Positions 2,079-55,057 of a stretch of DNA of 64,000 nucleotides are shown piece by piece. The DNA comes from Labrys wisconsinensis (GTDB taxonomy: Bacteria; Pseudomonadota; Alphaproteobacteria; Rhizobiales; Labraceae): positions 62,001-126,000 of the forward strand of contig NZ_JAUSVX010000009.1 of NCBI RefSeq assembly GCF_030814995.1. The letters are read 5' to 3'. Numbering within the stretch: the stretch's first letter is position 1; each line of letters opens with the position of its first letter. The position numbers were made by a program, and so were the translations under genes. Below the pieces are notes generated by a model. The model had not been told where the DNA came from. It ran no database searches and saw only the letters and a program-made list of their open reading frames with translations.

Positions 2079-2927
2079 TCAGGAGACCTCCTCCTGAAGC
2101 GGGACTTGCCGGGCGCGGCGGACGGAGAGCGCCATCAGCACCGCGTAGACGGTGAGGAGCGCGAAGGAGAACAGCGTCGTCAGCACGCCGAAGGCGAAGA
2201 TGTTCGGGTGGATCTCGACCGCGAACGTCCCGTAAATCGCCAGCGGCAGGGTGAGGTCGCGCCCCGAGGCGAAGAGGGTGCGGGAGAATTCGTCGTAGCT
2301 CAGCGTGAAGGCGAACATCATCGCCGAAAGCACGCCGGGGAAGATCAGCGGAAACGTCACCTTCCGGAAGGTCCGCAGCGGCGAGACGCCGAGCGACCAG
2401 GCCGCCTCCTCGACGCTGGGATCGAAGCGGTTGAAGATCGCCAGCATCACCAGGAAGGCGAAGGGGAAGGTGTAGACCACGTGCAGCACGAAGGCCGTGC
2501 CCCACCAGTGCCGGTCGATGCCGACGGCATTGGACAGGAGCGAGATGCCGAGGCCGACGAGGACGCCCGGGACCATCATGCCGAGCACGATGAGGTAGAA
2601 GACGAAGCCCGATCCCCGGAACCGGGTCCGGAACGCCTGCGCCGAGGCGACGCCCAGCGTCGTCGACACCACCATGGTCATGAAGGCGAGGCAGAGCGAG
2701 CGCAGCAGGCTGTCGGCGATCGGTAGCGGCGCGATCCGGGACGGCGGCACCAGGCCGACGAGGTGCCGATACCAGTAGGTCGACCATTCGACGATCGGGA
2801 ATTGCGGCCCGCCTTCCGGTCCGGTCTGGAACGACAGCACCGCGAGGATGGCCATCGGCGCATAGAGGAACACCAGGAACAGGATCGTGTAGACCCCGAG
2901 CAGCGGCTTGATGATCATCGAGCGCAT
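2079..2927 (-). CDS. ABC transporter permease, PotC-like
   Basis: A 282-residue inner-membrane permease with about six hydrophobic segments. The cytoplasmic loop EEAAWSLGVSPLRTFRKVTFPLIFPG matches the EAA motif that couples permeases to the ATPase. The start is the ATG of MRSMIIKPLLG at 2927; a longer open frame upstream runs antisense to the neighbouring genes. It starts 8 bp after the first permease stops, so the two are surely co-transcribed and probably form a heterodimeric channel. Confidence 0.93.
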   Translation of the reverse strand: MRSMIIKPLLGVYTILFLVFLYAPMAILAVLSFQTGPEGGPQFPIVEWSTYWYRHLVGLVPPSRIAPLPIADSLLRSLCLAFMTMVVSTTLGVASAQAFRTRFRGSGFVFYLIVLGMMVPGVLVGLGISLLSNAVGIDRHWWGTAFVLHVVYTFPFAFLVMLAIFNRFDPSVEEAAWSLGVSPLRTFRKVTFPLIFPGVLSAMMFAFTLSYDEFSRTLFASGRDLTLPLAIYGTFAVEIHPNIFAFGVLTTLFSFALLTVYAVLMALSVRRARQVPLQEEVS

Positions 2928-2935
2928 GGCGGCCC

Positions 2936-3871
2936 TCAAAGCTCCTTGCGCAGGTCGACGATGCGCAGCAGCCCGGCGACGACCGCTCCGATGATGACCG
3001 TGAGCACGACCCCCGCCACCGAGGCGAAGGCCCATTTCAGCGAGCCGACCTGGGTGACGATGATGTTGCCGAGCAGGTTGACCTTGCGGCCCGACAGGGC
3101 GGCCGAGGTGGCGAACTCGCCGAGCACCATGACCGAGACGAAGATCGAGCCGACGACCACGCCGGGCAGCGACAAGGGCAGGATGATCGTGCGGAAGATG
3201 CGACCGAAGCCGGCGCCGAGGTCGCGGGCGGCCTCGATGATGTTCGGGTCGATGCGCCCGAGCATGAAGGCGATCGGACCGACCATGAACACGCAGTAGA
3301 TCTGCGTCATGCCGATCACCACGGAGAGGTCGGAGAACAGCAGCGCCTCGATCGGCGCATTGGTGAGGCCGAGCCATTGCAGCACGATGTTGATCGCGCC
3401 TTCCTTGCCGAGCATCGGGCGCCAGGCCAGCACCCGGATCAGGAACGAGGTCCAGAACGGGATGACGCACAGCGTCAGCAGCACGGTCTGCAGCGTCTTG
3501 TTCCTGACGAACAGGCCGACGAAGAGGCCTGTGGGATAACCGACGAGGAGGGTGGCGGCGAGCACGGTCAGCCAGATGCGGATCGTGGTCCAGAGCGCGT
3601 CGAGATAGGTGCCGCTGGTGAAGAAGGTCACCCAGCTCCTGGTGGTGAGGATCGGCTGGATGGCGAAGGTCGTCTGCGTCCAGAAGGAGACGTAGAGGAT
3701 CATCGCGATCGGCAGGACCAGGAACAGCGCCATCCAGGCGACGCCGGGGGCGACCAGCCAATAGGCGGAGCGCGAGCCGGCACGCCGGCCCGCGGCGGGC
3801 CGGACCGGCGCTGCCGATCCCCCCGTCGCGACGGCGACGTCCTCGCCCACCGTTCCAGCGAGAGTCTTCAT
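2936..3871 (-). CDS. ABC transporter permease, PotB-like
   Basis: A 311-residue permease with an N-terminal 40-residue Ala/Arg/Gly-rich cytoplasmic tail, a first membrane helix (YWLVAPGVAWMALFLVLPIA) and the EAA-like loop IIEAARDLGAGFGRIFRTIILP. Its start overlaps the end of the ATPase gene by 4 bp (ATGA), a sign of translational coupling. With the 2079-2927 permease it makes the membrane part of a polyamine-type importer. Confidence 0.93.
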   Translation of the reverse strand: MKTLAGTVGEDVAVATGGSAAPVRPAAGRRAGSRSAYWLVAPGVAWMALFLVLPIAMILYVSFWTQTTFAIQPILTTRSWVTFFTSGTYLDALWTTIRIWLTVLAATLLVGYPTGLFVGLFVRNKTLQTVLLTLCVIPFWTSFLIRVLAWRPMLGKEGAINIVLQWLGLTNAPIEALLFSDLSVVIGMTQIYCVFMVGPIAFMLGRIDPNIIEAARDLGAGFGRIFRTIILPLSLPGVVVGSIFVSVMVLGEFATSAALSGRKVNLLGNIIVTQVGSLKWAFASVAGVVLTVIIGAVVAGLLRIVDLRKEL

Positions 3872-6101: not shown

Positions 6102-6911
6102 CTACAGCCGGTAGGTCCCGGGCTTGCGATCCCTGAACGGCGAAATCTCGAACTCGCCCGATTCGAACACGATTCTCTTGTCGCGTGACCGGTTCAGGTC
6201 GACCTCCGCCGCGAACAGCCCCGTCTGCGTGCCGGCATGGACCAGGACATGGCCGGTCGGATCGACGATCTGGCTCGAGCCCATGAACTCGCTCCGATCC
6301 TCCGTGTCGTTGCGGTTGGCGGCGAGAAAATAGACGAAGTTCTCCGCCGCCCTGACCGGCGTGAACAGGTCGGCCAGGATATGGGACTGAGCCGGCCAGT
6401 TGGTCGGCAGCACAACGATCTCGGCACCGCTCAGGACGAGCGTGCGCACCACTTCCGGGAAGCGGATTTCGTAGCAGATGGCGATGCCGATCTTGCCGAC
6501 GGGCGTGTCGAACACCGAAGGCTCGATGCCTCCGGGCTCGTCAGCGAAGCGGTCGCCGCCCAGGAACGGCAGATGGCGCTTGCGATGGCTGCCGACCACG
6601 CCCTGGGGCCCGATGAGCAGGGCCGTGTTGTAGACACGCTCCCCGTCGCGCTCGAACAGCCCGACCACGGTGTGGATCGCCAGCCGCCTGCAGGTCTCGA
6701 CGATCAGGGCGACCTCCGGTCCCGAAGCCGGGATGGCGGCACCCGCCAGGCCCGCGCGGTCGTGGAAGACGTAGCCGGTCAAGCCACATTCCGGGAAGGC
6801 GACGAAGGCGCACCCGTCGGCCGCGGCACGCTCGAGCCAGCCGGCCACGGTCTCGGCGTTCTGCAAGGCAGCACCTCTGACCGACCCAATTTGCGCGACC
6901 GCGATTTTCAT
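6102..6911 (-). CDS. carbon-nitrogen hydrolase (nitrilase superfamily)
   Basis: A 269-residue amidase of the nitrilase superfamily. The catalytic triad is visible: Glu41 in FPECGL, Lys111 in HRKRHLPF and Cys146 in AICYEIRFPE. Such enzymes release ammonia or an amine from amides or carbamoyl compounds. The start MKIAVAQ at 6911 is chosen because the superfamily core begins there; an in-frame ATG at 7007 would add an unlikely tail overlapping the promoter region. It is the first gene of the leftward operon and is divergent from the GntR regulator at 7188. Confidence 0.88.
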   Translation of the reverse strand: MKIAVAQIGSVRGAALQNAETVAGWLERAAADGCAFVAFPECGLTGYVFHDRAGLAGAAIPASGPEVALIVETCRRLAIHTVVGLFERDGERVYNTALLIGPQGVVGSHRKRHLPFLGGDRFADEPGGIEPSVFDTPVGKIGIAICYEIRFPEVVRTLVLSGAEIVVLPTNWPAQSHILADLFTPVRAAENFVYFLAANRNDTEDRSEFMGSSQIVDPTGHVLVHAGTQTGLFAAEVDLNRSRDKRIVFESGEFEISPFRDRKPGTYRL

Positions 6912-7187
6912 GACGCCCATATGCGTGTAATGTGGCATGTAGTATGTCACGCTCCACAAGCGAGTCAATCGCGCCGGGCGCACGGAGTTTGGGCGATCGA
7001 TGATCAAAGACTATGCGTCGCCGGATGCCGCCCGTTCCGCATGCGGCGGGACGGCCTGCAACCGGGGCATGCAGGCGACCCTTCGATTGCCTTCGGCCGG
7101 AAGGCCGTGCATGGCTGAGGCGAGCACGTGCGACCGGGACCCGTCCGCCAGCGGCAGAATCAGCGCAGACCGAGAGACGAAACCGTG
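6912..7187. promoter_or_regulatory. divergent intergenic region, amidase operon / GntR regulator
   Basis: A 276-bp region between divergent starts. The part next to the amidase gene (about 6918-6960) is less GC-rich than its surroundings and contains the imperfect dyad GCATGTAGTATGTC. FCD-type GntR proteins bind short AT-containing dyads in such positions, so this is the natural operator candidate. The -35 and -10 hexamers are not clear. Confidence 0.35.
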
Positions 7188-7916
7188 ATGCAGAGCATGG
7201 ACCTTCGCCAAAAGAGCCTGGCGACCCGCGTGTTCGAGATCGTGCGCAACGCGATCGTCGTCGGAGAGTTCGCGCCGGGAAGCCTGCATTCGGTCCAGGA
7301 GATCGCGGAAAAGCTCAACGTCTCGCGGACGCCCGTGCGCGAGGCGCTGCTGAAGCTCGAAGAGCTCGGCATGGTCAGCTTCGAGCGCAACCGTGGCGCG
7401 CGCATCCTGGAGACCACTGTCCACGATCTTGAGGAGATCTTCAGCCTGCGCGTCCTCCTCGAGGTGCCGGCGGCCTACCGCGCCGCCTCCCGCGTCACGC
7501 CGAGCGAGCTACGCAAGCTCGGCCACACCCTGGAGGAGGTCAAGAGCGCCTACAGATCGACCTCGACCAATGTGCGCGCCCATCTGGAACCCGACGCCCG
7601 GTTCCATCATTGCATCGCGCTGATCTCGGGGAGCCGCCGCCTCGCCGGCATCCTCGACAACCTCTTCGACCAGCAGATGATCGCCGGCGGAACATCCGGC
7701 GGATACACGCGCGAGATGGACTCGATCTACCGCGACCATGAGCGCATCTACGAGACGATCGCCGCCCAGGATCCCGAAGGCGCGGCGGAGGCGATGCGCG
7801 ATCACCTCGTCACCAGCGCCCGTGCGCTGGTCGCCAAGGAAACCGGCGACGCCGAGGCGGGCAGCGCCTTCGGGCCGCTCTACATCGATGCGCTGTCCCT
7901 GCGCGGCAAGATCTGA
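7188..7916 (+). CDS. GntR-family transcriptional regulator, FCD domain
   Basis: A 242-residue regulator with an N-terminal winged helix (residues about 8-75, containing LNVSRTPVREALLKLEELG) and a C-terminal all-helical FCD effector domain with metal-ligand-type residues (DARFHH; Asp/His pattern). FCD regulators usually repress carboxylate or amino-acid catabolic genes and release DNA on ligand binding. It is transcribed away from the amidase-cyclase-importer operon and very likely controls it. The start MQSMDLRQ at 7188 is preferred over an upstream GTG at 7128 because the family fold begins there; the ribosome-binding site is weak. Confidence 0.88.
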   Translation: MQSMDLRQKSLATRVFEIVRNAIVVGEFAPGSLHSVQEIAEKLNVSRTPVREALLKLEELGMVSFERNRGARILETTVHDLEEIFSLRVLLEVPAAYRAASRVTPSELRKLGHTLEEVKSAYRSTSTNVRAHLEPDARFHHCIALISGSRRLAGILDNLFDQQMIAGGTSGGYTREMDSIYRDHERIYETIAAQDPEGAAEAMRDHLVTSARALVAKETGDAEAGSAFGPLYIDALSLRGKI

Positions 7917-23507: not shown

Positions 23508-23936
23508 ATGTTCCGCAAACTTGCGACGGCTTTGGTCGCCACTCTTGTGATTGGCGGCTCGGTTCTTTCCACGACCAGCTCTGCAGAGGCTGGCGGGAGT
23601 GTCTTCATCCCGCGTCACGGCGGCGGTGGCTGGGGCCATGGCGGCGGTGGCTGGGGTCATGGTGGCGGTGGCTGGGGTCATGGTGGCGGCGGCTGGGGCC
23701 GTGGCGGCGGCTGGGGTCACCGCGGCGGCTGGGGCTGGGGCGGCGCTGCCGCGGCCGGCTTCGTCGGCGGCGCGTTGCTGGGCTCGGCCCTGGCGGCTCC
23801 GGGCTACGGCTACTATGACGGCCCCGACTACTACGCCCCCGGCCCGGCCTATTACGGCCCTGCCTGCTACTGGCGTCGGCAGCGCTTCTTCGACGGCTAC
23901 TACTGGCGCGTGCGCCGCGTCGAGGTCTGCGACTGA
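23508..23936 (+). CDS. secreted Gly/Trp/His-rich repeat protein
   Basis: A 142-residue exported protein. A signal peptide (MFRKLATALVATLVIGGSVLSTTSSAEA) precedes four near-identical GGGGWGH heptads, further Gly/Trp/His sequence, a hydrophobic Ala/Gly helix (AAAAGFVGGALLGSALA), a Tyr/Pro-rich stretch and a basic C-terminus WRRQRFFDGYYWRVRRVEVCD. Proteins of this design are frequent in rhizobia and uncharacterised. The His/Trp repeats suggest metal or surface binding, but this is a guess. ATG 23508 has GGAGG six bases upstream. A strong terminator follows. Confidence 0.8.
   Translation: MFRKLATALVATLVIGGSVLSTTSSAEAGGSVFIPRHGGGGWGHGGGGWGHGGGGWGHGGGGWGRGGGWGHRGGWGWGGAAAAGFVGGALLGSALAAPGYGYYDGPDYYAPGPAYYGPACYWRRQRFFDGYYWRVRRVEVCD
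23621..23704 (+). repeat. four 21-bp tandem repeats in coding sequence
   Basis: Four head-to-tail copies of a 21-bp unit (YGGCGGTGGCTGGGGYCATG plus G), each encoding the heptad GGGGWGH or a close variant. Copies differ at one to a few bases, so copy number could vary between strains by slippage. Confidence 0.9.
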
Positions 23937-24792: not shown

Positions 24793-24821
24793 GAAGAAGG
24801 CGTGCAGCGCACGCCTTCTTC
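24793..24821 (-). terminator. terminator of the dimethylformamidase-like/ABC operon
   Basis: A perfect 13-bp stem GAAGAAGGCGTGC/GCACGCCTTCTTC with a 3-nt loop lies 30 bp after the stop of the solute-binding protein gene. In the minus orientation it is followed by TTGATT. Stem strength and position make it the likely operon end. Confidence 0.75.
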
Positions 24822-24850: not shown

Positions 24851-25807
24851 TCAGTCGCCGGGGTGGTCCTTCAGGAATTGCGCGGCATTGTCCCTGGTGA
24901 TGATGCCCTGGATCGGTACAGCGACGTCGCCGGGCTTCTCGCCGGCAAGAACGCGAGCCGCCGTATCGACCGCCGTTTCGCCAAAGGCCCAGTACGGATA
25001 GATCACCGTCGCATCGATGATGTCACCGGCGGCGATCATTTTCACGGCAGCGGCCTGGCCGTCATGACCGATGACGAGCATATCCTTGTTGGCCCGTTTC
25101 AGGGCTTCGACCGCGCCGATCAGCGCGATGTCCGTATCGGAATAGAGCCCCTTCAGGTCCGGGAACGCGGTGAGCCAGTTTTCCATCAGGGCCCGCGCCT
25201 TGAGGGGATCGCAGAAGGCGTCACCGGTCACCGCGACCTTGATACCGGAGCCCTGGAGTCCATCGAGGAATCCATCCTGCCTGTTGTCCATCTGGGTGTT
25301 GCCGGCGTAGCAACGAAGGACGGCAATCCTGTCACCCGGCTTCAGTTTGCTGGCCATGTATTCGCCGGCGGGCCTTGGGGCGGCGCGGTCGTCGAACTGA
25401 ATTCTCGCGGCGGCATTTTTCAAGGTCGGGATCGGGACCGAGTTGGTGATGACCTTTACGCCCTGCGCCTGCGCCTTTTCCAGAGCGGGCGTCAGTTGTT
25501 CGCCGGCCTCACCGGGGTCGATGACAATGACGTCGAGTCCTCTCGTAACCGCAGACTCGATTTTTGCGATCAGCTCGGGAGCGGTGTTTCTGCTTGCGCC
25601 GGCCGTGAACTGGAACTTGATTCCCGGATACTTGCCGGCTTCCTTCCTGGCGGCATCGAGTTGGCTGATATAGGCTTGGTCGTCCAGGGTCGGCACGATA
25701 TAGAGGACTTGTCCGGTTGGACGCTGGGCGAGGGCATCGAGCGGGAAGCATGCCAGGGAGCCCATTGCCGCCAGGCCGAAAAGCAGATTCATCGTCCGAT
25801 TGGTCAC
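24851..25807 (-). CDS. substrate-binding protein, CUT2/ribose-type ABC importer
   Basis: A 318-residue periplasmic binding protein of the Peripla_BP_4 fold. A signal peptide MTNRTMNLLFGLAAMGSLACFPLDALAQ is followed by the two-lobe pattern of ribose/autoinducer-2-type binders: TLDDQAYISQLDAARKEA, a DVIVIDPGEAGEQ hinge region, YSDTDIALIGAVEALK and GHDGQAAAVKMIAAG. It is the last gene of the leftward operon with the permease, ATPase and dimethylformamidase-like enzyme. The ligand is probably the amide-containing compound that enzyme attacks; a sugar is possible from family alone. Confidence 0.88.
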   Translation of the reverse strand: MTNRTMNLLFGLAAMGSLACFPLDALAQRPTGQVLYIVPTLDDQAYISQLDAARKEAGKYPGIKFQFTAGASRNTAPELIAKIESAVTRGLDVIVIDPGEAGEQLTPALEKAQAQGVKVITNSVPIPTLKNAAARIQFDDRAAPRPAGEYMASKLKPGDRIAVLRCYAGNTQMDNRQDGFLDGLQGSGIKVAVTGDAFCDPLKARALMENWLTAFPDLKGLYSDTDIALIGAVEALKRANKDMLVIGHDGQAAAVKMIAAGDIIDATVIYPYWAFGETAVDTAARVLAGEKPGDVAVPIQGIITRDNAAQFLKDHPGD

Positions 25808-25846
25808 GTCGTTCTCCCTCTGCTGGTTGAGATCCTATCCAACGGC

Positions 25847-26650
25847 TTATTGCGCCGGGCCCCGGTGATCCATGTGCCGGGCCGCGGCGGACGCCCCGAC
25901 GATCATCGAGACGATGTGCTCCTGAAGCTCGGGGATGGCCTCGCACTCCCCGACATTGCGGCCTTGCCGGAGCACGGTGGCACGATCGCAAACCTCCAGG
26001 ACTTCCTGGATGTTGTGGCTGATCAGAATGACCGAGATGTCCTGTTCGGCGAGCCGCCGGATCATCCGGCGGACATTGCGTTTCTCGCGCAGGCCCAGCG
26101 CCGCGGTCGGCTCGTCGAGGATGACGATGCGTCCGGCAAAAGCGAAGCTCCGTGCGATTGCGACCGCTTGGCGCTGCCCGCCTGACATGAGCCCGATCGG
26201 CTGATAGGGGTCCTTGATGCGAACCTCGAGCACCTCGGTGTACCGCTTCCATTGCTCGACCATCTTGCGGCGGTTGAGGAAGGACAGCGGACCGAGGAAG
26301 CGTCCGTAGGACTCTTCGCGGCCGATGAAGATGTTCTCGATGACATTGAGGTTGTCGAAGACCGCGAGATCCTGGAACACCGTCTCGATGCCATGACTGC
26401 GTGCATCGGCCGAGGACTGGAAATTCACAACCTTGCCGTCGAGTCGGATCTCGCCGCTGTCGACGGAGTGGACGCCGGAGAGTGCCTTGATCAGCGTCGA
26501 TTTGCCGGCCCCGTTGTCGCCGAGGAGCCCAAGGATCTCGCCCTTGTGCAACGTGAGGCTGACGCGCTCCAGCGCGACGACCGAGCCGAAGGATTTCGAA
26601 ACGTCCCTGACTTCGAGGACGGCGGGGCGATCGGTGTTCGTCGTGATCAT
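25847..26650 (-). CDS. ABC transporter ATP-binding protein, single-domain CUT2 type
   Basis: A 267-residue ATPase with Walker A GDNGAGKST, Q-loop VFQDLAVFDNL, signature MSGGQRQAVAIAR, Walker B IVILDEPTAALG and H-loop LISHNIQEV. Unlike RbsA it has one ATPase domain, so two copies must dimerise. Its ATG overlaps the permease stop by 4 bp. The gene at 57278-58057 is of the same short type. Confidence 0.93.
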   Translation of the reverse strand: MITTNTDRPAVLEVRDVSKSFGSVVALERVSLTLHKGEILGLLGDNGAGKSTLIKALSGVHSVDSGEIRLDGKVVNFQSSADARSHGIETVFQDLAVFDNLNVIENIFIGREESYGRFLGPLSFLNRRKMVEQWKRYTEVLEVRIKDPYQPIGLMSGGQRQAVAIARSFAFAGRIVILDEPTAALGLREKRNVRRMIRRLAEQDISVILISHNIQEVLEVCDRATVLRQGRNVGECEAIPELQEHIVSMIVGASAAARHMDHRGPAQ

Positions 26651-27693
26651 TGTGCGTGCTCCCGGGCCTGCATGGCGCGGAGCTTCGTTTCCAGCCGGCC
26701 GCGGACCATGTCGATCTGCAGCGCGACGAGGATGAGGAGGCCGATCGCGACCGTCTGGTAGAAGGGCTCGACGCCGAGCAGATCGAGGCCATTCTTGATG
26801 ACGCCGATGATCAGCGCGCCGACGAGGACGTTCCAGATATTGCCGCGGCCGCCGAAGAGGCTGGCGCCGCCGATGACGACGGCGGTAATGGCATAGAGTT
26901 CCAGGCCGGCGCCCGCCATCGGCGTCGCGGCATCCGTTCGCCCCGCGGTGATGATGCCCGCGAGTCCCGCGGTCAGGCCGCAGACCGTATAGCAGAATAG
27001 AACGATGGCCTTGGTCGGCACGCCGAGCTTCTCGGCGGCCTCCGGATTGCCGCCGACGGCATAGATCCAGCGGCCGAGCTTGGTCGATGTGACCAGCACG
27101 CCGAGGAGCGCCGCAAGGCCGAACAGGATCACGACCGGCGTCGGCAGGAGGCCGACGAAGCTGTCGCCGAGAAGGGCGAGCTCCGGCGGCAGACCGGCCA
27201 CGACCTTTCCGCCGGTGGTGATTTGCGCGGCACCGCGCGCGATGCTCATCGTCGCGACTGTCACGATCAGCGGCTGCGGTACTTTTCCGGACGTGATGAG
27301 GCTGCCGTTCACGGCTCCAGCGGCGGCGCCGACCGCAAGGCAGGTGATGATCTGCGCAAGGCCATGGCCGGGGAAGGCGACGACGCTGACCATCGTCGCA
27401 AGGGCAAGGACGGAGCCCACGGAAATGTCGATGCCGCGGGCGAGGATGACGAAGAGCTGGCCGAGCGCGAGCACGCCGACGACTGCGCTCTGGACGCCGA
27501 TGTTCTGAATATTCCCGACGGTGAGGAAGTACGGCGATAGCAGCGCGAAGGCGAGGCACAATACGAGAAGGATCAGGGGCGGACCGAGGCGGATCGCGGC
27601 GCCGAGGACGGAGATGAGCCTCGCACGCCCCGAGATCGCACGGGGGTCGGTCTCGCCTCGATCAAAGTCCGGTGTTGCAGCCGATTCTGTCAT
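26647..27693 (-). CDS. ABC transporter permease, RbsC-like
   Basis: A 348-residue inner-membrane permease with about eight to ten hydrophobic segments. Family marks are ILARGIDISVGSVLALATMVS, GAVNGSLITSGKVPQPLIVTVATM and the C-terminal GGASLFGGRGNIWNVLVGALIIGVIKNGLDLLG. The start is ATG 27693, eight bases after the stop of the preceding enzyme gene. The open frame upstream of this is antisense-like noise. Confidence 0.92.
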   Translation of the reverse strand: MTESAATPDFDRGETDPRAISGRARLISVLGAAIRLGPPLILLVLCLAFALLSPYFLTVGNIQNIGVQSAVVGVLALGQLFVILARGIDISVGSVLALATMVSVVAFPGHGLAQIITCLAVGAAAGAVNGSLITSGKVPQPLIVTVATMSIARGAAQITTGGKVVAGLPPELALLGDSFVGLLPTPVVILFGLAALLGVLVTSTKLGRWIYAVGGNPEAAEKLGVPTKAIVLFCYTVCGLTAGLAGIITAGRTDAATPMAGAGLELYAITAVVIGGASLFGGRGNIWNVLVGALIIGVIKNGLDLLGVEPFYQTVAIGLLILVALQIDMVRGRLETKLRAMQAREHAQ

Positions 27694-27700
27694 CTGTGCG

Positions 27701-29926
27701 CTATCCCCTTTCGGTGGTGCTCGCGTCGGGCCGCCGATCGCCCGGCGGCAGACCGCCGAGCTTGCGGAGGACATTGCCGGTGATGCGCGAGACGTTGTTG
27801 TCGTAATTGTTGTGCGAGAGGCTTCCGCACCACGAGATCGAGCCGACGGAGAACACCGCGCCGCCGTGGCCGGTCTCGAAGTAGACCATGTCCGCCCTGA
27901 TCTTCTGCCATTGTTCGCGGCGCGACAGTCCGGAGACGTCCCCATGCTCCTCGATCGGCGGGGAGTAGGTGTCGCCATGGCCTGTGGCGGTTGCGAGGTG
28001 GATGACATCGCGCGGCGTCGGCAAGTCGTCGCTGAGGCTGTCGACCTCGTCGCCGGCCGCACCGCCGAGGACGAGCCCGAAATCGCCTATGGTTTCCGTG
28101 TCCGACACACCTTCGAAAATGAAGGCCGCCCGCGGATCGAAACTGCCGGGCAGGCGCCGATAGCCGGGCGAGACGGAATCATAACCCATCGCGCGGAAGC
28201 CGATGCCGACCAGCTGATTGGGCGGCAGGCCGCGATGGCGCCAGAGGCCGCCGAGCTCCCCGGTGGTGCTGTGGTGGAGCTCGCCCGGAGCCGAGGTCCA
28301 GGCGCGGCCGCCGGCATTGCCTCGGCGCACTTCGATCAGGTGGGGCCGCTCGGAACTGACCGAGGTCACCCAGTAGTAGCCGTTGCCGCCGAGATACATG
28401 TGGCTGCCGCCGCACTGCAGATAGGCCTCGAGCCCGGTGCGCATCGCTCCCGTCCAATATTCGGGATGGGTGCCGCTGAGCACGACGTCGTAGGGATCGA
28501 GCAGGCTCATGCCTTCGTGGTGGAGGTCGTGGTCGGTGATGACGTGGTAATCGATGCCCTGCGCCTCGAGCCAGTCGATGAGATAGAGGTCGGCCGCCAG
28601 GTGCCTCGGCGTGCCGAACTGCCACTGCCGATAGTCGGGCCGCATGTTGGGAATGGGACGGAGAAAGCTCGAGTGGCAGACACCCGATCCATCCGAATGC
28701 TTGTCATAGATCGACAGGCCGAACTCGGGATGCGCGGCGAGATAGAGGTCGAGGTCGTTGGCCTCCATAGGCCGCTTCTGAAAGAACGCGCGGTATTCGG
28801 GGAGCCCGCGCAAGGATTCATCGGCATAGGCGAGATAGGTCATCGTCGGCAGGAGGAGGAGGACGCTGGCCTTCTCGCTTCCCGGCCGGACGACGAACGG
28901 GATTCGGTCGCTTGCGTCCGCCGCCGTAAGCCGCAAGGCATAGACGCCGCTGCGCTGCGCCGCCGGAAGCTGCCATGTGACGGAGGTTTTCCAAGCGGCG
29001 TCCTCCAGATCGTCGTCGTGGAAATGGATCGCGCCATATTCGGCCGGCGCATGCCGGAAGTGGTGCTCGCTGCCGGCCCAGCCATGGCCGGTGACAGCCC
29101 GCGTCGGGGCATTGACGAGAGTGCCGTGCAGCGCGTGCGGACCGCTGTCGCACAGGATCATCGTCCCGATCCCGACGGAGAAATCCCAGGCGGCGACAAG
29201 GTCGAGCCGGGCCGAGCCCGGGTCGGGCGCCGCGAAGAGCTGCCCGATTTCGGCGTCGGTCAACGCACGCCCGACGAGCGTCGGACGCTCGATCTTGCCA
29301 TTGAAATGGCCGTCCGGCTCGCCCGACGCTCCGGTCGCCGCAATCAGGAGCGGCACATCGTTCTCCAGGACGGACAGGTCGACCGGACGAACCAACGCGG
29401 GGCCCGGGGCGCGATCGACCGCCGCCTGCAGGAGCCGGACCTCTTGGCGAGCGGCGTCGAACACGGCCGCCACGCGAGTCCAGCGGCGGCACTCCAGCGG
29501 TAGGCCGGTGCCCACGGAAACGTCGCGCACGCCGTCGCCGAGCCAGAAGGTGAGGTCGCCGTCCGGCCCCACCCCGAGGGCATAGCCCGATGCGCCCCGG
29601 CGCTTCGAGACCAGCCCCTGGCCACTCCCTTTCGGCGCGGCCGTGGGGAAGACCCAGGCGCAGAGCGTAAAGCTGCCCGCCGGGCAGAGGACGTCGTGGT
29701 GGGGAACGCAGCCATAGGATCCAGCCCGAGCAATCTGCTTCTCTCCTGGAAACTCGCCCAGTTCGGCGACGCGTTCCTCCTTGAAGCCGGGACCGTTCTC
29801 GTCGCCGTGGATGAGGCGAACGATGTCGGCGCCATAGCGCTCGAAGTCCGTGCTGACCTTGAATGCGATCGCGCCCCCGGGCGCGACGCTCAATCTGTCG
29901 GCGTAGCCCGTCAACTCGTGGATCAT
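27701..29926 (-). CDS. N,N-dimethylformamidase large-subunit-like protein
   Basis: A 741-residue protein matching the beta (large) subunit of N,N-dimethylformamidase along its length. An N-terminal immunoglobulin/LamG-like region of about 230 residues includes FTLCAWVFPTAAPKG and HFNGKIERPTLVGRALTDAEIGQLF. The catalytic C-terminal half includes IYDKHSDGSGVCHSS, DYHVITDHDLHHEG and LSGTHPEYWTGAM. In the characterised Paracoccus enzyme a mononuclear iron is held by two Tyr and one Glu; the HPEYW Glu and nearby Tyr residues are the obvious counterparts here. No gene for the roughly 130-residue small subunit is present. The start is uncertain among GTG 29953, ATG 29932 and ATG 29926. The likely reaction is hydrolysis of a substituted amide. 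Confidence 0.83.
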   Translation of the reverse strand: MIHELTGYADRLSVAPGGAIAFKVSTDFERYGADIVRLIHGDENGPGFKEERVAELGEFPGEKQIARAGSYGCVPHHDVLCPAGSFTLCAWVFPTAAPKGSGQGLVSKRRGASGYALGVGPDGDLTFWLGDGVRDVSVGTGLPLECRRWTRVAAVFDAARQEVRLLQAAVDRAPGPALVRPVDLSVLENDVPLLIAATGASGEPDGHFNGKIERPTLVGRALTDAEIGQLFAAPDPGSARLDLVAAWDFSVGIGTMILCDSGPHALHGTLVNAPTRAVTGHGWAGSEHHFRHAPAEYGAIHFHDDDLEDAAWKTSVTWQLPAAQRSGVYALRLTAADASDRIPFVVRPGSEKASVLLLLPTMTYLAYADESLRGLPEYRAFFQKRPMEANDLDLYLAAHPEFGLSIYDKHSDGSGVCHSSFLRPIPNMRPDYRQWQFGTPRHLAADLYLIDWLEAQGIDYHVITDHDLHHEGMSLLDPYDVVLSGTHPEYWTGAMRTGLEAYLQCGGSHMYLGGNGYYWVTSVSSERPHLIEVRRGNAGGRAWTSAPGELHHSTTGELGGLWRHRGLPPNQLVGIGFRAMGYDSVSPGYRRLPGSFDPRAAFIFEGVSDTETIGDFGLVLGGAAGDEVDSLSDDLPTPRDVIHLATATGHGDTYSPPIEEHGDVSGLSRREQWQKIRADMVYFETGHGGAVFSVGSISWCGSLSHNNYDNNVSRITGNVLRKLGGLPPGDRRPDASTTERG

Positions 29927-29999
29927 CTCCATCCCCTCGCAGCCGAACGTCACCAGACGAACGAGGAGCGCCGCTGCGGTTCAGCGGCGCCCGCGGCTG

Positions 30000-31250
30000 T
30001 CATGCGTCCTCTTTGAGGTCGAACCGCCGCGCCTCGATCGGCTCGACATTCCCGAGCTCGGCCTCGCACGCCGACAGGTCGCCCATGGCGACGCGCCCGG
30101 CGATATCGATGTTGCGGCAGATGTTGGCGATGTCCGCCTCCGTATGCCGAGGGTGGGTCGGCACCAGCACCGTCCGCGCCAGGATCGCGAGCGAATCCGC
30201 GCACATTTCGCGCGTGTAGGTCTTCCGGCAGTCCTTGTTCGCGGCCATGCGGAACGGGTTCATCTCCGGATGCGCCGCCCCGTCGCCGGTGAGCACCTGG
30301 TCCCATTCCGTATAGGTGTGCCGGCCGGTCCGGCCCGCGACGACGCTTGGGAACACCTTCGAGAACGCCGCCGCCGCGCCTGCGGTCGGGAACGTCAGGA
30401 TGGCGTGCGTGGCGCAATCATCGGCAGGGCTGTGGAGCGGCGCGGCACGCACGCCGAGCCGCGCGAGGCTCTTCACCACGGCGAGGATGGCATCGCGCTC
30501 CTCGCGCATCACGGCGACCATGCCGTCGATACGGTCGAGCTGCACGTTGAGCATCGCGCCCATCAGCTCGCTGGCGCGGGCGCCGTTGCCGGCGAACGGT
30601 TTCACCGACTCGTTGCGCCCCTGCCAATAGAAATTGCAGGGATCGATGGCGCAGCGCATGCGCTCGGCAAAATAGTCGCTGTTCGTGGAGACGCCGCCGC
30701 CCTCGCCGGCCGTCATGTTCTTGTAGTAGTTGAAGCTGTAGCAGCCGACATCGCCGATGCTGCCGAGCTTCCTGCCCTCGTAGCTGCCGCCGACGCCCTG
30801 GCAGGCATCCTCGATGACGATGAGGCCGTGCTTGCCGGCGATGGCCATGATCGGGCGCATGTCGCAGGCCGTGCCCCACATGTGCACCGGGATGACGGCC
30901 CTGGTCTTCGGGCCGATGGCGCGCTCGAAGGCCTCGGGATCCATGGTGAGGCTCTCGTCGATGTTGACGAAGACCGGAATGGCGCCCGCGGCCAGGACCG
31001 ACGTCGCGGTCGCCATGTAAGTGTGGGCCGGGATCAGGACCTCGTCACCCGGCCCGAGGCCGACGCCGACGACGGCCGCCACGAGGGCATTGGTGCCGCT
31101 GGCGGCGAGCGCCGCATGCTTGACGCCGAGATAGGCCGCATAGCGCGCCTCGAAGCGGGAGCACTCCTGCCCGACTCCGTACCTGAACAGGGCATCGGAC
31201 CTGACAACGCGGGCGAGCGCGTCGATCTCCTCCTCGCCGACGATATACAT
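30000..31250 (-). CDS. DegT/DnrJ/EryC1/StrS family PLP aminotransferase
   Basis: A 416-residue fold-type I aminotransferase of the class used on sugar nucleotides and some amino-cyclitols. The cofactor Lys is K177 in SFNYYKNMTAGEGG, preceded by VIEDACQGVGGSYEGRKLGSIGDV. The start MYIVGEEEID is set by GAGGAG seven bases upstream. It lies between the MocR regulator and the dimethylformamidase-like gene, all in one direction, so a catabolic rather than antibiotic or cell-wall role is suggested. The substrate is unknown. Confidence 0.9.
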   Translation of the reverse strand: MYIVGEEEIDALARVVRSDALFRYGVGQECSRFEARYAAYLGVKHAALAASGTNALVAAVVGVGLGPGDEVLIPAHTYMATATSVLAAGAIPVFVNIDESLTMDPEAFERAIGPKTRAVIPVHMWGTACDMRPIMAIAGKHGLIVIEDACQGVGGSYEGRKLGSIGDVGCYSFNYYKNMTAGEGGGVSTNSDYFAERMRCAIDPCNFYWQGRNESVKPFAGNGARASELMGAMLNVQLDRIDGMVAVMREERDAILAVVKSLARLGVRAAPLHSPADDCATHAILTFPTAGAAAAFSKVFPSVVAGRTGRHTYTEWDQVLTGDGAAHPEMNPFRMAANKDCRKTYTREMCADSLAILARTVLVPTHPRHTEADIANICRNIDIAGRVAMGDLSACEAELGNVEPIEARRFDLKEDA

Positions 31251-31302
31251 GGCGTTCTCCTCGAATTCAGCGTCTGTGGTCGAGGAGAAGGTAGCGAAAG
31301 GC

Positions 31303-31347
31303 CATTGGTCCCCAGAAGGGCCAATGATTGTCAATGTTGAGGAACCA
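31303..31347 (-). promoter_or_regulatory. candidate regulator sites before the DegT gene
   Basis: An inverted repeat CATTGG (31303-31308) / CCAATG (31321-31326) lies 53-76 bp upstream of the DegT start. GAGGAACCA (31339-31347), inside the 3' end of mocR, repeats nine bases of the arm of the palindrome at 32843-32886. Both could be MocR sites, but a 9-base match can occur by chance. Confidence 0.35.
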
Positions 31348-32839
31348 CTTCCTTCTCGCCTGCCGAGGATGCGGCGTGGCGCGTGTCGAAGGTCTGGAAC
31401 AGATTGCGCAGCCCAGCCACGGCGGCGTGGCTTTCGCGCTCGGCAAGCCGGGCATAGCCGAGGAGCAGGCCTCTCTGGGGCTCATCGCAATGGAAGTTGG
31501 CGGAAAGCGGCTGTGCGTCAATGCCGTGCAGCGCCGCCTCCTGCGCCACCTGGCGGTCGTCGAAGGGCTTCCTGAAGCGGCCGAGCAGCTGAATGCCGCT
31601 GTCGCTCGCCGATACCTCCATCCATTCGCCGAGCTGGCTGGCGCAAAGCCCGAGCAGGTAGGCCTGCCGCTTGGCATAGAGCGATCGCATGCGCTTGAGG
31701 TGGGCTGCGAAATGCCCCTCGCGGATGAAGTCCGCCAGCGCCGCCTGCAGGATCAGCGGCGCGAACTGTCCGGTGATTGCAAGCGCGCGGTCGATCGGCT
31801 CGACCAGCCCCATCGGCACGATGAGATAGCCGATGCGAAGTGACGAGAAGAGCGTCTTGCCGAAGGTGCCGACATAGACCACGCGCTCGGACGTATCGAG
31901 GCCCTGCAGCGCCGAAATCGGTTTGCCGCGGAAACGATATTCGCCGTCATAGTCGTCCTCGACGATCCAGGCGTTATGGCGAGATGCGAGTTCGAGCAGT
32001 TCCAGCCGTTCATCGAGCCGCATGATCTCGCCGGTCGGCCATTGGCACGAGGGGGTGATGTAGATCAGCCGCGGCGGAGGCAGTTGCGGATCGGAGAGCC
32101 GCCATCCCGTCTCCGACACGCGGAGCGGAGCGACCGTCGCTCCGCCGGCAAGCAGGGCCGTCCTGGCGCCGATATAGCCCGGCTCCTCGAGCCAGGCGGT
32201 GTCGCCGCTGTCCAGCAATGTCCGGGCGAGGAGGTCCAGCCCGGCCTGCGCTCCCGTGACGACCACCACCTGCTGCGGCGTGCACACCACCCCGCGCGCG
32301 ACGGCCGCGTAGTGCGCTATGGCCTCGCGCAGGTCCGGATGCCCGCAGAAGCTGAAATAGGTGAGGATATCCTCCGAGCGGCTGTGCGCCCGCCGCGCCA
32401 GCAGCCTCGACCAGATCGAGAACGGGAAGCTCTCGGTCTCCGGATAGCCCGGGTGAAAGTTCAATTTCCTCGGGCTACGGCCAAACCGCGGCTGGCCCGC
32501 GATCATCCTGCCGCGGCGCGACAGTTCGGGAGCGGCCACGCGCTTTTCGGCGGGCAGGCCGGACTTCGGGCGGTCCATGATGCTGGAGACGACCGTGCCG
32601 GAGCCGATCCTGGACTCGACATATCCTTCGACGATGAGCTGCTCATAGGCGGCGATCACGCTGTTGCGCGCGACCTGAAGCGTCGCGGCAAGATCGCGCG
32701 TGGACGGCAGCCGGCTGCCGGGCGGCAGAGTCCCCTTCAGGATCTGCGCCCGCAGGCTGTCATAGATCTGCCGGTGGCCCGGCGAACCGGACTGTCGATC
32801 GATGACGATGCTGTCGAAAGGCAGAGCTCTCCGGTTCAC
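31331..32839 (-). CDS. MocR/PdxR-type GntR regulator with aminotransferase domain
   Basis: A 502-residue regulator. An N-terminal GntR winged helix (residues about 18-85, LPSTRDLAATLQVARNSVIAAYEQLIVEGYV) joins a fold-type I aminotransferase-like effector domain. The PLP-binding Lys is in VGTFGKTLFSSLRIGYLIVP, and SCQWPTGEIM and VEDDYDGEYRF are family marks. MocR proteins sense PLP or an amino compound. The start codon is GTG at 32839. It is transcribed toward the DegT-amidase-ABC genes and probably controls them as well as itself. Confidence 0.9.
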   Translation of the reverse strand: MNRRALPFDSIVIDRQSGSPGHRQIYDSLRAQILKGTLPPGSRLPSTRDLAATLQVARNSVIAAYEQLIVEGYVESRIGSGTVVSSIMDRPKSGLPAEKRVAAPELSRRGRMIAGQPRFGRSPRKLNFHPGYPETESFPFSIWSRLLARRAHSRSEDILTYFSFCGHPDLREAIAHYAAVARGVVCTPQQVVVVTGAQAGLDLLARTLLDSGDTAWLEEPGYIGARTALLAGGATVAPLRVSETGWRLSDPQLPPPRLIYITPSCQWPTGEIMRLDERLELLELASRHNAWIVEDDYDGEYRFRGKPISALQGLDTSERVVYVGTFGKTLFSSLRIGYLIVPMGLVEPIDRALAITGQFAPLILQAALADFIREGHFAAHLKRMRSLYAKRQAYLLGLCASQLGEWMEVSASDSGIQLLGRFRKPFDDRQVAQEAALHGIDAQPLSANFHCDEPQRGLLLGYARLAERESHAAVAGLRNLFQTFDTRHAASSAGEKEVVPQH

Positions 32840-32842
32840 GCA

Positions 32843-32886
32843 ATGGTTCCTCGCTTACCGGAAAACCGGTCCTACTGAGGAACCAT
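32843..32886 (-). promoter_or_regulatory. 44-bp palindrome at the mocR translation start
   Basis: Arms ATGGTTCCTC and GAGGAACCAT (10 bp, perfect) enclose a second dyad ACCGG-AAAA-CCGGT (32857-32870). It begins 4 bp before the mocR GTG and covers its ribosome-binding region, so it looks like an autoregulatory operator. Confidence 0.6.
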
Positions 32887-52837: not shown

Positions 52838-53902
52838 ATGTTCAGGACATCCATCATCGCGGCGTTCGCCGCAGCCGGCCTGCTGGCCGCGGCCGGCCCG
52901 GCGCTGGCCGACGGCACCGTCGGCCCCGGCGGCGAGGCGGCGACGCCGTCGAGCGCCGTGACGCTGTCGGACGCCGAGGCCGCCAAGCTGAAAGAGGGCA
53001 AGTACACCGCCGCCCTGCTCTGGCACACGTCGTCGGATTTCGTGAACGCGGTCACCGCCGGCGCCAAGGACGAGTTCGCCCGCCTCGGCATTTCGGTTGT
53101 GGCCGAGACCGATGCCGGCTTCGACGCCGCCAAGCAGAAGAGCGACGTCGAGACCATCCTGGCCAAGAAGCCGAGCGCCATCCTGGCCCTGCCGCTCGAT
53201 CCCGTCACCGCGGCCGAGGCGTTCAAGCCGGCCGTCGCCTCGGGCGTCAAGATCGTGCTCCTGTCCAACAAGCCCAAGGACTTCGTCCAGGGCAAGGACT
53301 ACGTCGCCATCGTCACCGACGACCTCTACGAGATGGGCAAGCACGCGGCCGACGGATTGGCCGAGGCCATCGGCCGGAAGGGCAAGATCGCCTGGATCTA
53401 TCACGACGCCCAGTACTACGTGACCAACCAGCGCGACAACGCCTTCAAGGCGACGATCGAGAAGGACTACCCCGACATCAAGATCGTGGCGTCGCAGGGC
53501 ATTTCGGACCCGGCCCGGGCCGAGGACATCGCCAACGCCATCCTCCTCAAGAACCCCGACCTCGACGGCATCTACGTCACCTGGGCCGAGCCGGCCGAAG
53601 GCGTGCTTGCGGCCCTGCGCGCCGCCGGCAACAGCCGGACCAAGGTCGTCACGCTCGACCTCTCCGAGCCCGTCGGCCTCGACATGGTCAAGGGCGGCAA
53701 CGTCGCCGCCATCGCCGCCGACAAGGCCTATGAGCTCGGCCGCGCCATGGCGGCGGCCGCCGGCTACGGCCTCCTCGGCAAGCCGGCGCCCGCCTTCATC
53801 GTCGCGCCGGTGCTGACCGTCACCAAGGCGAACGTCGTCCAGGGCTGGCAGGACTCGCTGCATCGCCCGGCGCCGCAGTCGATCCTCGACGCGGCCAAGT
53901 AA
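52838..53902 (+). CDS. substrate-binding protein, CUT2-type, paralogue 1
   Basis: A 354-residue periplasmic binding protein with signal peptide MFRTSIIAAFAAAGLLAAAGPALA and a ribose-type two-lobe fold (KYTAALLWHTSSDFVNAV, AAKQKSDVETILAKKPSAIL, DGIYVTWAEPAEGVLAALRAAG). The next gene encodes a close paralogue. It is not the usual length for ribose binders (about 300) because of an N-terminal extension of about 35 residues (GTVGPGGEAATPSSAVTLSDAEAAKLKEG) shared with the paralogue. Confidence 0.9.
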   Translation: MFRTSIIAAFAAAGLLAAAGPALADGTVGPGGEAATPSSAVTLSDAEAAKLKEGKYTAALLWHTSSDFVNAVTAGAKDEFARLGISVVAETDAGFDAAKQKSDVETILAKKPSAILALPLDPVTAAEAFKPAVASGVKIVLLSNKPKDFVQGKDYVAIVTDDLYEMGKHAADGLAEAIGRKGKIAWIYHDAQYYVTNQRDNAFKATIEKDYPDIKIVASQGISDPARAEDIANAILLKNPDLDGIYVTWAEPAEGVLAALRAAGNSRTKVVTLDLSEPVGLDMVKGGNVAAIAADKAYELGRAMAAAAGYGLLGKPAPAFIVAPVLTVTKANVVQGWQDSLHRPAPQSILDAAK

Positions 53903-53920
53903 CGTCGCAACGCCGGCAAA

Positions 53921-53948
53921 CCCGGCCGGCGCACGCCATCCGGCCGGG
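53921..53948 (+). promoter_or_regulatory. stem-loop between the two binding-protein genes
   Basis: CCCGGCCGG pairs perfectly with CCGGCCGGG across a 10-nt loop, 18 bp after the stop of the first binding-protein gene. No T-run follows, so it is more likely an mRNA-stabilising or partial attenuation element than a full terminator. Confidence 0.55.
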
Positions 53949-53989
53949 ACCGAAGTCCAAGGCGATCCTCATCCACAGGGACGACAATC

Positions 53990-55057
53990 ATGAACCACTC
54001 CCGCGCCTTCCTGGCCTCGGCCGGCCTCGCCGCCCTCCTCGCCCTCGCCTCGCCGCTGCGAGCCGAGGTCGCGGCCACCAGGGGGCCGCACGGCGAGAGC
54101 GCCACGCCCGCCAAGAGCCTCACCCTGACGCCCGAGCAGGAGGCCAAGGTCAAGGCCGGCGGCTTCACCGCCGCCCTGGTCTGGCACACCTCCTCCGACT
54201 ACACCACGGCGGTCAACCAGGGGGCGAAGGACGAGTTCGCCCGCCTCGGCATCGCCGTCGTCGCCCAGACCGACGCCGGCTTCGACGCCGCCAAGCAGAA
54301 GAGCGACGTCGAGACGGTGATGGCCAAGAAGCCGAGCGCCATCCTCTCCCTGCCCGTCGACCCCGAGACCGCGCCCGAGGCCTACAAGCCGGCCCGGGAC
54401 GCCGGCGTGACGCTGGTCTTCGTCGACAACTCGCCCAAGGGCTACGAGCAGGGCAAGGACTATGTCGCCGTGGTCTCCGACGACCTGTCCCAGATGGGCA
54501 AGCGGGCGGGCGACGCCATGGGCGCCGCGCTGAACGGCAAGGGCAAGATCGGCTACGTCTTCCACGACGCCGATTTCTACGTCACCAACCAGCGTGACCG
54601 CGGCTTCAAGCAGACGATCCTCGACAGCTACAAGGGCATCGAGATCGTCGCCGAGCAGGGCCTGGCCGACCCGACCCGGGCCGAGGACATCGCCAATGCC
54701 CTCGTCGCCAAGCACCCCGACCTCGACGGCATCTACGTCACCTGGGCCGAGCCGGCCGAGAGCGTGCTGGCGGCGCTGCGCAACGCCGGCAACACCCACA
54801 CGAGGATCGTCACGCTCGACCTCTCCGAGCCGCTGGCGCTCGACATGGTCAAGGGCGGCAACGTCGCCGCCATCGTGGCGGACGAGGCCTACCAGATCGG
54901 CGTCACGGCGGCGCGCGCCGCGGCGGCCGGCCTGATCGGCGAGAAGACCGCGCCGTTCTACGCCGTCGACGCCATCGCCGTGACCAAGGCGAATCTCAAG
55001 GACGGCTGGAACCGCTCGCTGCACCGCGATCCGCCGCCGACCCTCGCCGCCCCCTGA
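53990..55057 (+). CDS. substrate-binding protein, CUT2-type, paralogue 2
   Basis: A 355-residue periplasmic binding protein with signal peptide MNHSRAFLASAGLAALLALASPLRA. It is nearly co-linear with the preceding gene product: identical runs include DAGFDAAKQKSDVET, DLDGIYVTWAEPAE and DMVKGGNVAAI. This is a tandem duplication that has since diverged, perhaps giving two ligands to one permease or simply more binding protein. Confidence 0.9.
   Translation: MNHSRAFLASAGLAALLALASPLRAEVAATRGPHGESATPAKSLTLTPEQEAKVKAGGFTAALVWHTSSDYTTAVNQGAKDEFARLGIAVVAQTDAGFDAAKQKSDVETVMAKKPSAILSLPVDPETAPEAYKPARDAGVTLVFVDNSPKGYEQGKDYVAVVSDDLSQMGKRAGDAMGAALNGKGKIGYVFHDADFYVTNQRDRGFKQTILDSYKGIEIVAEQGLADPTRAEDIANALVAKHPDLDGIYVTWAEPAESVLAALRNAGNTHTRIVTLDLSEPLALDMVKGGNVAAIVADEAYQIGVTAARAAAAGLIGEKTAPFYAVDAIAVTKANLKDGWNRSLHRDPPPTLAAP

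Follow-up and report, generated by a model that had tools for sequence, protein, structure and literature searches.

Rhizopines are root-nodule compounds, and the aminotransferase MosB forms scyllo-inosamine from scyllo-inosose and glutamate (PMC6668481, excerpt). The regulator of Sinorhizobium-type rhizopine catabolism (mocCABRDEF), MocR, has a published site of two 11-bp direct repeats separated by a 13-bp spacer (PMC10107442, excerpt). MocR-type regulators also govern other nutrient-catabolic clusters, as in ectoine catabolism under EnuR (MocR/GabR type), a system with a different substrate and different enzymes from those considered here (PMC8739950, excerpt). Among amide hydrolases, relevant characterized proteins are the N,N-dimethylformamidase of Paracoccus (6lvb) and N-acetyl-(R)-beta-phenylalanine acylase (8huy). 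Here we describe a locus of Labrys wisconsinensis in which a MocR, a DegT-family aminotransferase, a dimethylformamidase-family hydrolase (gene dmfA) and a CUT2-type importer are encoded side by side. It lies in a 64,000-nt stretch of contig NZ_JAUSVX010000009.1 (positions 62,001 to 126,000), hereafter the window; related loci are cited by number (L103 and so on).

The locus resembles mocCABRDEF in having a MocR of the same group, CUT2-type uptake and a moc-type operator, with two half-sites at a 24-bp period (13-bp spacer) ahead of a regulated gene. An amide-hydrolase gene is also common to both, from the YdjC family in plasmid rhizopine loci and from the dimethylformamidase family in the window. 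Unlike the moc system, the window has no match to IolE/MocC (the inosose dehydratase family), to MocA or to MocDEF, and no MocB orthologue; in their place are DegT and the dimethylformamidase-family hydrolase. Because several defining features were looked for and not found, we do not file the locus as a moc system member and place it, as a variant, within amino-inositol catabolism controlled by MocR.

We give an even chance to the locus being a regulon that serves the breakdown of an N-acylated amino-inositol of the scyllo-inosamine or rhizopine class. The binding protein and CUT2 transporter would take up this compound, and the dimethylformamidase-family enzyme would strip its acyl group (perhaps formyl or acetyl) to free the amine. 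DegT would then transfer the amino group to an oxo-acid, yielding an inosose that could be degraded through IolE and the inositol pathway, the genes for which lie at another locus. MocR may sense the amine or its pyridoxal phosphate (PLP) adduct and turn on degT, dmfA and the CUT2 genes from the operator between mocR and degT. The broader proposition, that the dimethylformamidase fold deacylates N-acyl amino-inositols in place of YdjC within a wider MocR amino-inositol regulon while DegT deaminates, is tentative and falls a little short of an even chance.

The window MocR clears the 650-bit cut-off of the profile NF052281 (rhizopine_MocR; score in Table 1). Because control MocRs also clear it, this match is weak on its own, and a tree of 26 MocRs was used. 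The window protein clusters with the DegT-linked MocRs of L110 and L121 (support 99/100), and a larger group joins these with the DegT-linked MocRs of L105 and L108 and with three plasmid-locus MocRs (84/87, without the tree program's star). Four control MocRs form a separate branch (100/100), and the IolE-linked MocR of L142 is placed outside. On the basis of this tree, we group the window MocR with those of rhizopine loci, apart from the four controls, with moderate confidence. The plasmid search returned 52 matching records, and ten loci were examined among the 30 matches listed: L112-L114 (rhizopine loci), L147-L150 (the controls), L151 and L152 (an unannotated outgroup) and L153, an IolE/YdjC/CUT2 locus. 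L112-L114 were called rhizopine loci from gene order and the label MocE in two of their records, none of the records using the word rhizopine; the labels MocA, MocB, MocD, MocF and MosB were assigned by gene position.

The operator was predicted with a 40-bp position-weight matrix made from the sequences that best match the published motif in the promoter regions of plasmid rhizopine loci and MocR-linked loci. Seventeen of 25 promoter regions examined supplied sites. The eight unused regions were the window's two, those upstream of mocR in L105, L110 and L121, and those of L108 degT, L110 YdjC-degT and L142. The matrix is not blind, as sites were picked by likeness to the published motif, yet at no stage did it contain the site from the window. 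Its top match on both strands of the 64 kb is 31312-31351 (-), at 24.95 bits (runner-up 10.37); the maximum on 20 random sequences was 18.0 bits. A 13-site matrix, free of window and DegT-locus sites, gives this site 20.6 bits and the runner-up in the 64 kb 10.3. In the plasmid rhizopine-locus promoters (L112-L114), 18-21 of 22 positions agree with the published motif.

The window operator overlaps the mocR stop codon, and its end is 61 bp upstream of the degT ATG. This position is conserved: an operator in the same sense and at 50-61 bp precedes degT in seven loci, the window included. In L103, L105, L109, L110 and L121 the spacing is 50-60 bp, and the L108 site is weak (5.8 bits). No operator was found before degT in L104, L106, L107 or L120 (for L120, within just 155 bp of upstream sequence), and none of these has a MocR within the fetched stretch either; L109 has the operator, yet no MocR within its 16 kb. 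Operators are not exclusive to degT, as the strongest match in L121 (35.8 bits) precedes a solute-binding-protein gene. Across the L. wisconsinensis genome the pattern gave 58 matches versus 127 for a reversed control and so is uninformative; among the 58 are the site in the window and one on contig C15 that separates MocR from IolE. On that contig (179001-199000, L140), IolE and another MocR of this family are divergently oriented and flank an operator-like site, and a Gfo/Idh dehydrogenase gene lies further along. The window has three copies of the half-site TGGTTCCTC, starting from 31339(-), 32844(+) and 32877(-) (expected mean 0.28; 1 of 100 shuffles reached three). The inverted repeat of TGGTTCCTC upstream of mocR has a half-site in common with the degT operator and is a possible autoregulatory site of mocR.

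The hydrolase belongs to the DMFA2 family by its DMFA2_C domain, its Tyr/Tyr/Glu iron ligands and His/Asn/Glu residues, and a predicted fold like that of 6lvb. Residues Y367, Y407, H487, E489, N515 and E627 correspond to Y399, Y440, H519, E521, N547 and E657, the iron-ligand and catalytic residues of the Paracoccus enzyme (PMC7686228, excerpt). All are invariant in 44 sequences except N515, which is nearly so; the alignment covers 43 of 80 dimethylformamidase-family loci, with L008, L012 and L025 dropped for a stop within the stretch. The structural model (pLDDT 89.0, pTM 0.91) matches the three-domain 6lvb with a Foldseek TM score of 0.94 (36% identity) and 8huy with 0.87 (38% identity). The latter is an N-acyl amide hydrolase by name, with an N-acetyl beta-amino acid as substrate. 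The loop at dimethylformamidase F693 is of low confidence in the model, and the pocket comparison there was dropped. The window protein would be a mononuclear iron amide hydrolase, with the iron predicted from its ligands. Unlike N,N-dimethylformamidase, it has no adjoining small subunit and sits with an importer under a MocR. The first-pass annotation had called it a large-subunit-only homologue, and at the locus the flanking gaps of 67 and 7 bp indeed leave no room for a small-subunit gene. Since the Paracoccus large subunit alone is inactive (PMC7686228, excerpt), the window enzyme must act without a small subunit or borrow one. Relatives of this hydrolase are common, with at least 585 confirmed stretches in our scan. 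The L. wisconsinensis genome itself encodes two further homologues, L122 (contig C17, 45%) and L123 (contig C1, 41%), with no DegT or MocR match in 20 kb.

DegT is a member of the DegT/DnrJ/EryC1/StrS family, with the family domain and a PLP lysine, Lys177, invariant across 17 aligned rows. In family and lysine it resembles MosB, as judged from the gene in the MosB position. Orthologues with 58-68% identity were identified in eight other genomes among 397 of the order, with a ninth at 43%, and two further genomes were found among 385 of the class. A search of 398 genomes of the phylum recovered only the window DegT and, once more, one of these matches. More distant relatives (about 41%) in L115 (10001-11185) and L116 (10001-11191) stand beside GMC oxidoreductase, phosphopantetheinyl transferase and nonribosomal peptide synthetase/polyketide synthase genes, without an operator, and form a separate, perhaps biosynthetic branch.

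The neighbors of these genes in other genomes bear on the substrate. Close MocRs (E<=1e-140) number 13 in 11 of 297 genomes of the order, the window included. Their fetched stretches contain IolE in nine cases and this DegT in three (window, L105 and L108), never both; the remaining one, L144, sits at a contig start. CUT2 permeases occur in nine of the 13. In the four control MocR loci, searched over shorter stretches (13-15 kb), no DegT, IolE, YdjC or CUT2 permease was found. The ten other DegT loci, one of which is a 3.2-kb contig, contain MocR in five cases, a CUT2 permease in four, YdjC in three, IolE in one and a dimethylformamidase homologue in none. Gfo/Idh dehydrogenases adjoin DegT in related loci. 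In L121, an inositol monophosphatase-family gene (2666-3589, -) lies directly 3' of the DegT orthologue, beside MocR, and a Gfo/Idh dehydrogenase also follows DegT. Of the 11 DegT-bearing genomes, that of L. wisconsinensis included, 10 encode an IolE relative (40-100% identity). Because most MocR relatives lie near IolE, several have Gfo/Idh dehydrogenases close by and one has an inositol monophosphatase, we narrowed the substrate class to amino-inositols (the rhizopine class).

The first-pass annotation also held that these enzymes are not normally seen together, which is true of the loci we examined: among the 80 dimethylformamidase-family loci (some of them short contigs), no match to DegT or MocR exceeds 80 bits, and none of the ten DegT loci has a homologue of the hydrolase. 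It had named homologues scattered outside this context as evidence that would refute its reading. The amidase is indeed scattered, but the DegT-MocR-CUT2 combination recurs in four of the ten other DegT loci.

A deacetylase of another family, YdjC, is found in all three plasmid rhizopine loci (L112-L114, for L114 by similarity only), in three of the ten DegT loci (L108-L110) and in four of the 13 close-MocR loci (L108, counted in both sets, and the IolE loci L137, L138 and L141), as well as in L153. The L112 and L113 genes, annotated as polysaccharide deacetylases, are YdjC-family members. The genes at L112:10693-11622 (-), L113:10672-11556 (-) and L114 about 10858 (-) adjoin the MocA-position gene. 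The main text of PMC10107442 nowhere uses the word deacetylase. By position and chemistry, the dimethylformamidase-family hydrolase may replace YdjC as the amide hydrolase at the window locus. L109, with YdjC and the operator, also encodes a LamG-domain protein (6335-7417, +) divergent to DegT, without a tblastn match to the window hydrolase.

Several observations weigh against an amino-inositol regulon, beyond the absence of moc genes given above. The NF052281 match was rejected as proof of rhizopine: all four control MocRs, with unrelated neighbors, score 689-696 bits. Three of the four control loci also have operator matches (18.4-28.5 bits), so that neither profile nor operator proves the ligand. 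A matrix of the five rhizopine-locus sites alone barely ranks the window site first (11.6 vs 10.8 bits). DegT-linked MocRs are not one clade, as that of L103 clusters with IolE-linked MocRs, and five of the ten DegT loci lack a MocR within the fetched stretch. The identification of DegT with MosB, a biosynthetic enzyme, was likewise rejected, as DegT and its counterpart in the MosB position of L113 are only 34% identical over 250 aa; the best solved relative of DegT is an 8-amino-3,8-dideoxy-octulosonate transaminase, ahead of known inosose aminotransferases. Among the loci examined, hydrolase and DegT are paired in this one genome only. YdjC itself has no match in the window and was not found in L103, L105, L121, L139, L140 or L142-L146. 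The best IolE match is only 40-42% in some DegT-bearing genomes, and one of the 11 has none. Compared with the protein in the MocB position of L112, the binding protein shows 25% identity over 240 aa and is not an orthologue. It has no relative at E<=1e-50 among 296 other genomes of the order and none at 1e-30 in the plasmid set, and for lack of relatives at these cut-offs it yields no substrate clue. Elsewhere in the window (53111-54811, +), the MocB-position protein has further weak matches (24-27%) among binding proteins.

An alternative substrate is an N-acyl amino sugar, such as an amino-deoxy hexose, from which DegT would remove the amine to leave a keto-sugar. The best solved DegT relatives are sugar aminotransferases (KdnA-type 5k8b and perosamine synthetases), and the importer's best named matches, none of which reaches its cut-off, are to systems for ribose, allose and galactofuranose. 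Chito-oligosaccharide deacetylases are known from the YdjC family. Given that the majority of MocR relatives lie near IolE and that rhizopine-locus MocRs are in the nearest group, we consider an amino sugar unlikely, though with an appreciable minority chance. A small-amide pathway in a loose or chance grouping of genes, in which the hydrolase acts on formamide-like compounds or N-acyl amines that have nothing to do with sugars or cyclitols while DegT and the importer serve another compound, has a small chance. The active site of dimethylformamidase is retained in the hydrolase, which is about as close to that enzyme as to the acylase, other homologues occur without DegT, and the control MocRs of L147 and L149, with operator, adjoin acetamidase/formamidase genes. 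Such a pathway must be reconciled with a hydrolase gene 7 bp from the permease gene, downstream of an operator shared with degT, and with the missing small subunit; the recurrence of DegT-MocR-CUT2 without the hydrolase also speaks against it.

There is a very slight chance that DegT is biosynthetic, serving to make an aminocyclitol-containing product for which the importer recovers a precursor. Many DegT-family enzymes, solved relatives of this one among them, are biosynthetic. MosB itself makes rhizopine (PMC6668481, excerpt). Hydrolase, importer and MocR together form a catabolic layout, however, and S. meliloti MocR, on binding rhizopine, activates rhizopine-catabolic genes (PMC10107442, excerpt). 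For the N-acylated amino-inositol regulon that we prefer, the first-pass idea of import and breakdown of an N-substituted compound under a PLP-binding regulator fits, given the operator before degT, the CUT2 genes, the kept amidase residues and the other-family deacetylases of related loci; its "amino-sugar-like" substrate is narrowed to amino-inositols, and that interpretation is borne out in part. The locus had also been called undescribed. This applies to the gene combination, no description of which was found in titles and abstract openings of open-access literature, and not to the regulator type and operator, which were already described (PMC10107442, excerpt).

All six predicted reading frames, on the minus strand between 24851 and 32839, are present, and domain searches assign them to the families first proposed (Table 1). 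The intergenic gaps, from mocR to the binding-protein gene in transcription order, are as short as had been reported (80, 67, 7, -4 and 39 bp). The single six-gene operon first suggested is weakened as an idea by the predicted operator within the mocR-degT gap; mocR probably forms one transcription unit and degT-dmfA-permease-ATPase-binding protein another. The hairpin said to end the genes has its 13-bp stem, GAAGAAGGCGTGC / GCACGCCTTCTTC (z = -2.5 in a 71-nt stretch). It is not established as a classic intrinsic terminator because only two T directly follow the stem and the terminator scan does not list it. The window also contains, at about 23510-23936 (+), a small frame that looks secreted and combines GGGGWGH repeats with a tail rich in Tyr.

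Table 1. Genes and predicted signals of the locus (window coordinates).
Feature	Position	Strand	Basis
mocR, MocR/GntR regulator with aminotransferase-like domain, 502 aa	31331..32839	-	NF052281 rhizopine_MocR 729.7 bits; GntR + Aminotran_1_2; 26-MocR tree
degT, DegT/DnrJ/EryC1/StrS-family PLP aminotransferase, 416 aa	30000..31250	-	DegT_DnrJ_EryC1 PF01041 246.4 bits
dmfA, dimethylformamidase-family amide hydrolase, 741 aa	27701..29932	-	Laminin_G_3 (LamG/pentraxin-type) + DMFA2_C PF20254 340.1 bits
CUT2 permease, 348 aa	26647..27693	-	BPD_transp_2 PF02653 124.7 bits
CUT2-type ATPase, single ABC domain, 267 aa	25847..26650	-	ABC_tran PF00005 109.4 bits
Periplasmic binding protein, CUT2 type, 318 aa	24851..25807	-	Peripla_BP_4 PF13407 148.9 bits
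Predicted MocR operator, two half-sites 24 bp apart	31312..31351	-	Position-weight matrix
Inverted repeat ATGGTTCCTC...GAGGAACCAT directly before mocR	32843..32886	.	Read from sequence; half-site TGGTTCCTC
Hairpin, 13-bp stem, short T tract, downstream of last gene	24793..24821	-	RNA fold

The gene set was possibly gained by transfer, as an island. Four other genomes of the genus have no DegT (E<=1e-70), MocR (E<=1e-140) or binding protein (E<=1e-50). Third-position GC is 0.76-0.90 in the six genes versus 0.91-0.94 in three flanking genes. In the same four relatives, the helicase and efflux genes that flank the locus do not lie together, being widely spaced or on separate contigs.

To our knowledge, few dimethylformamidase relatives have a natural substrate assigned. 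A MocR whose relatives indicate one ligand class, beside such a relative, provides a testable substrate class. If the proposal is correct, N-acylated inosamines would make up a class of nutrients that extends past the rhizopines of nodules, with a transaminase route for amine removal at hand. The YdjC gene of rhizopine loci would gain a likely role, and the dimethylformamidase fold would have a so far unreported natural one.

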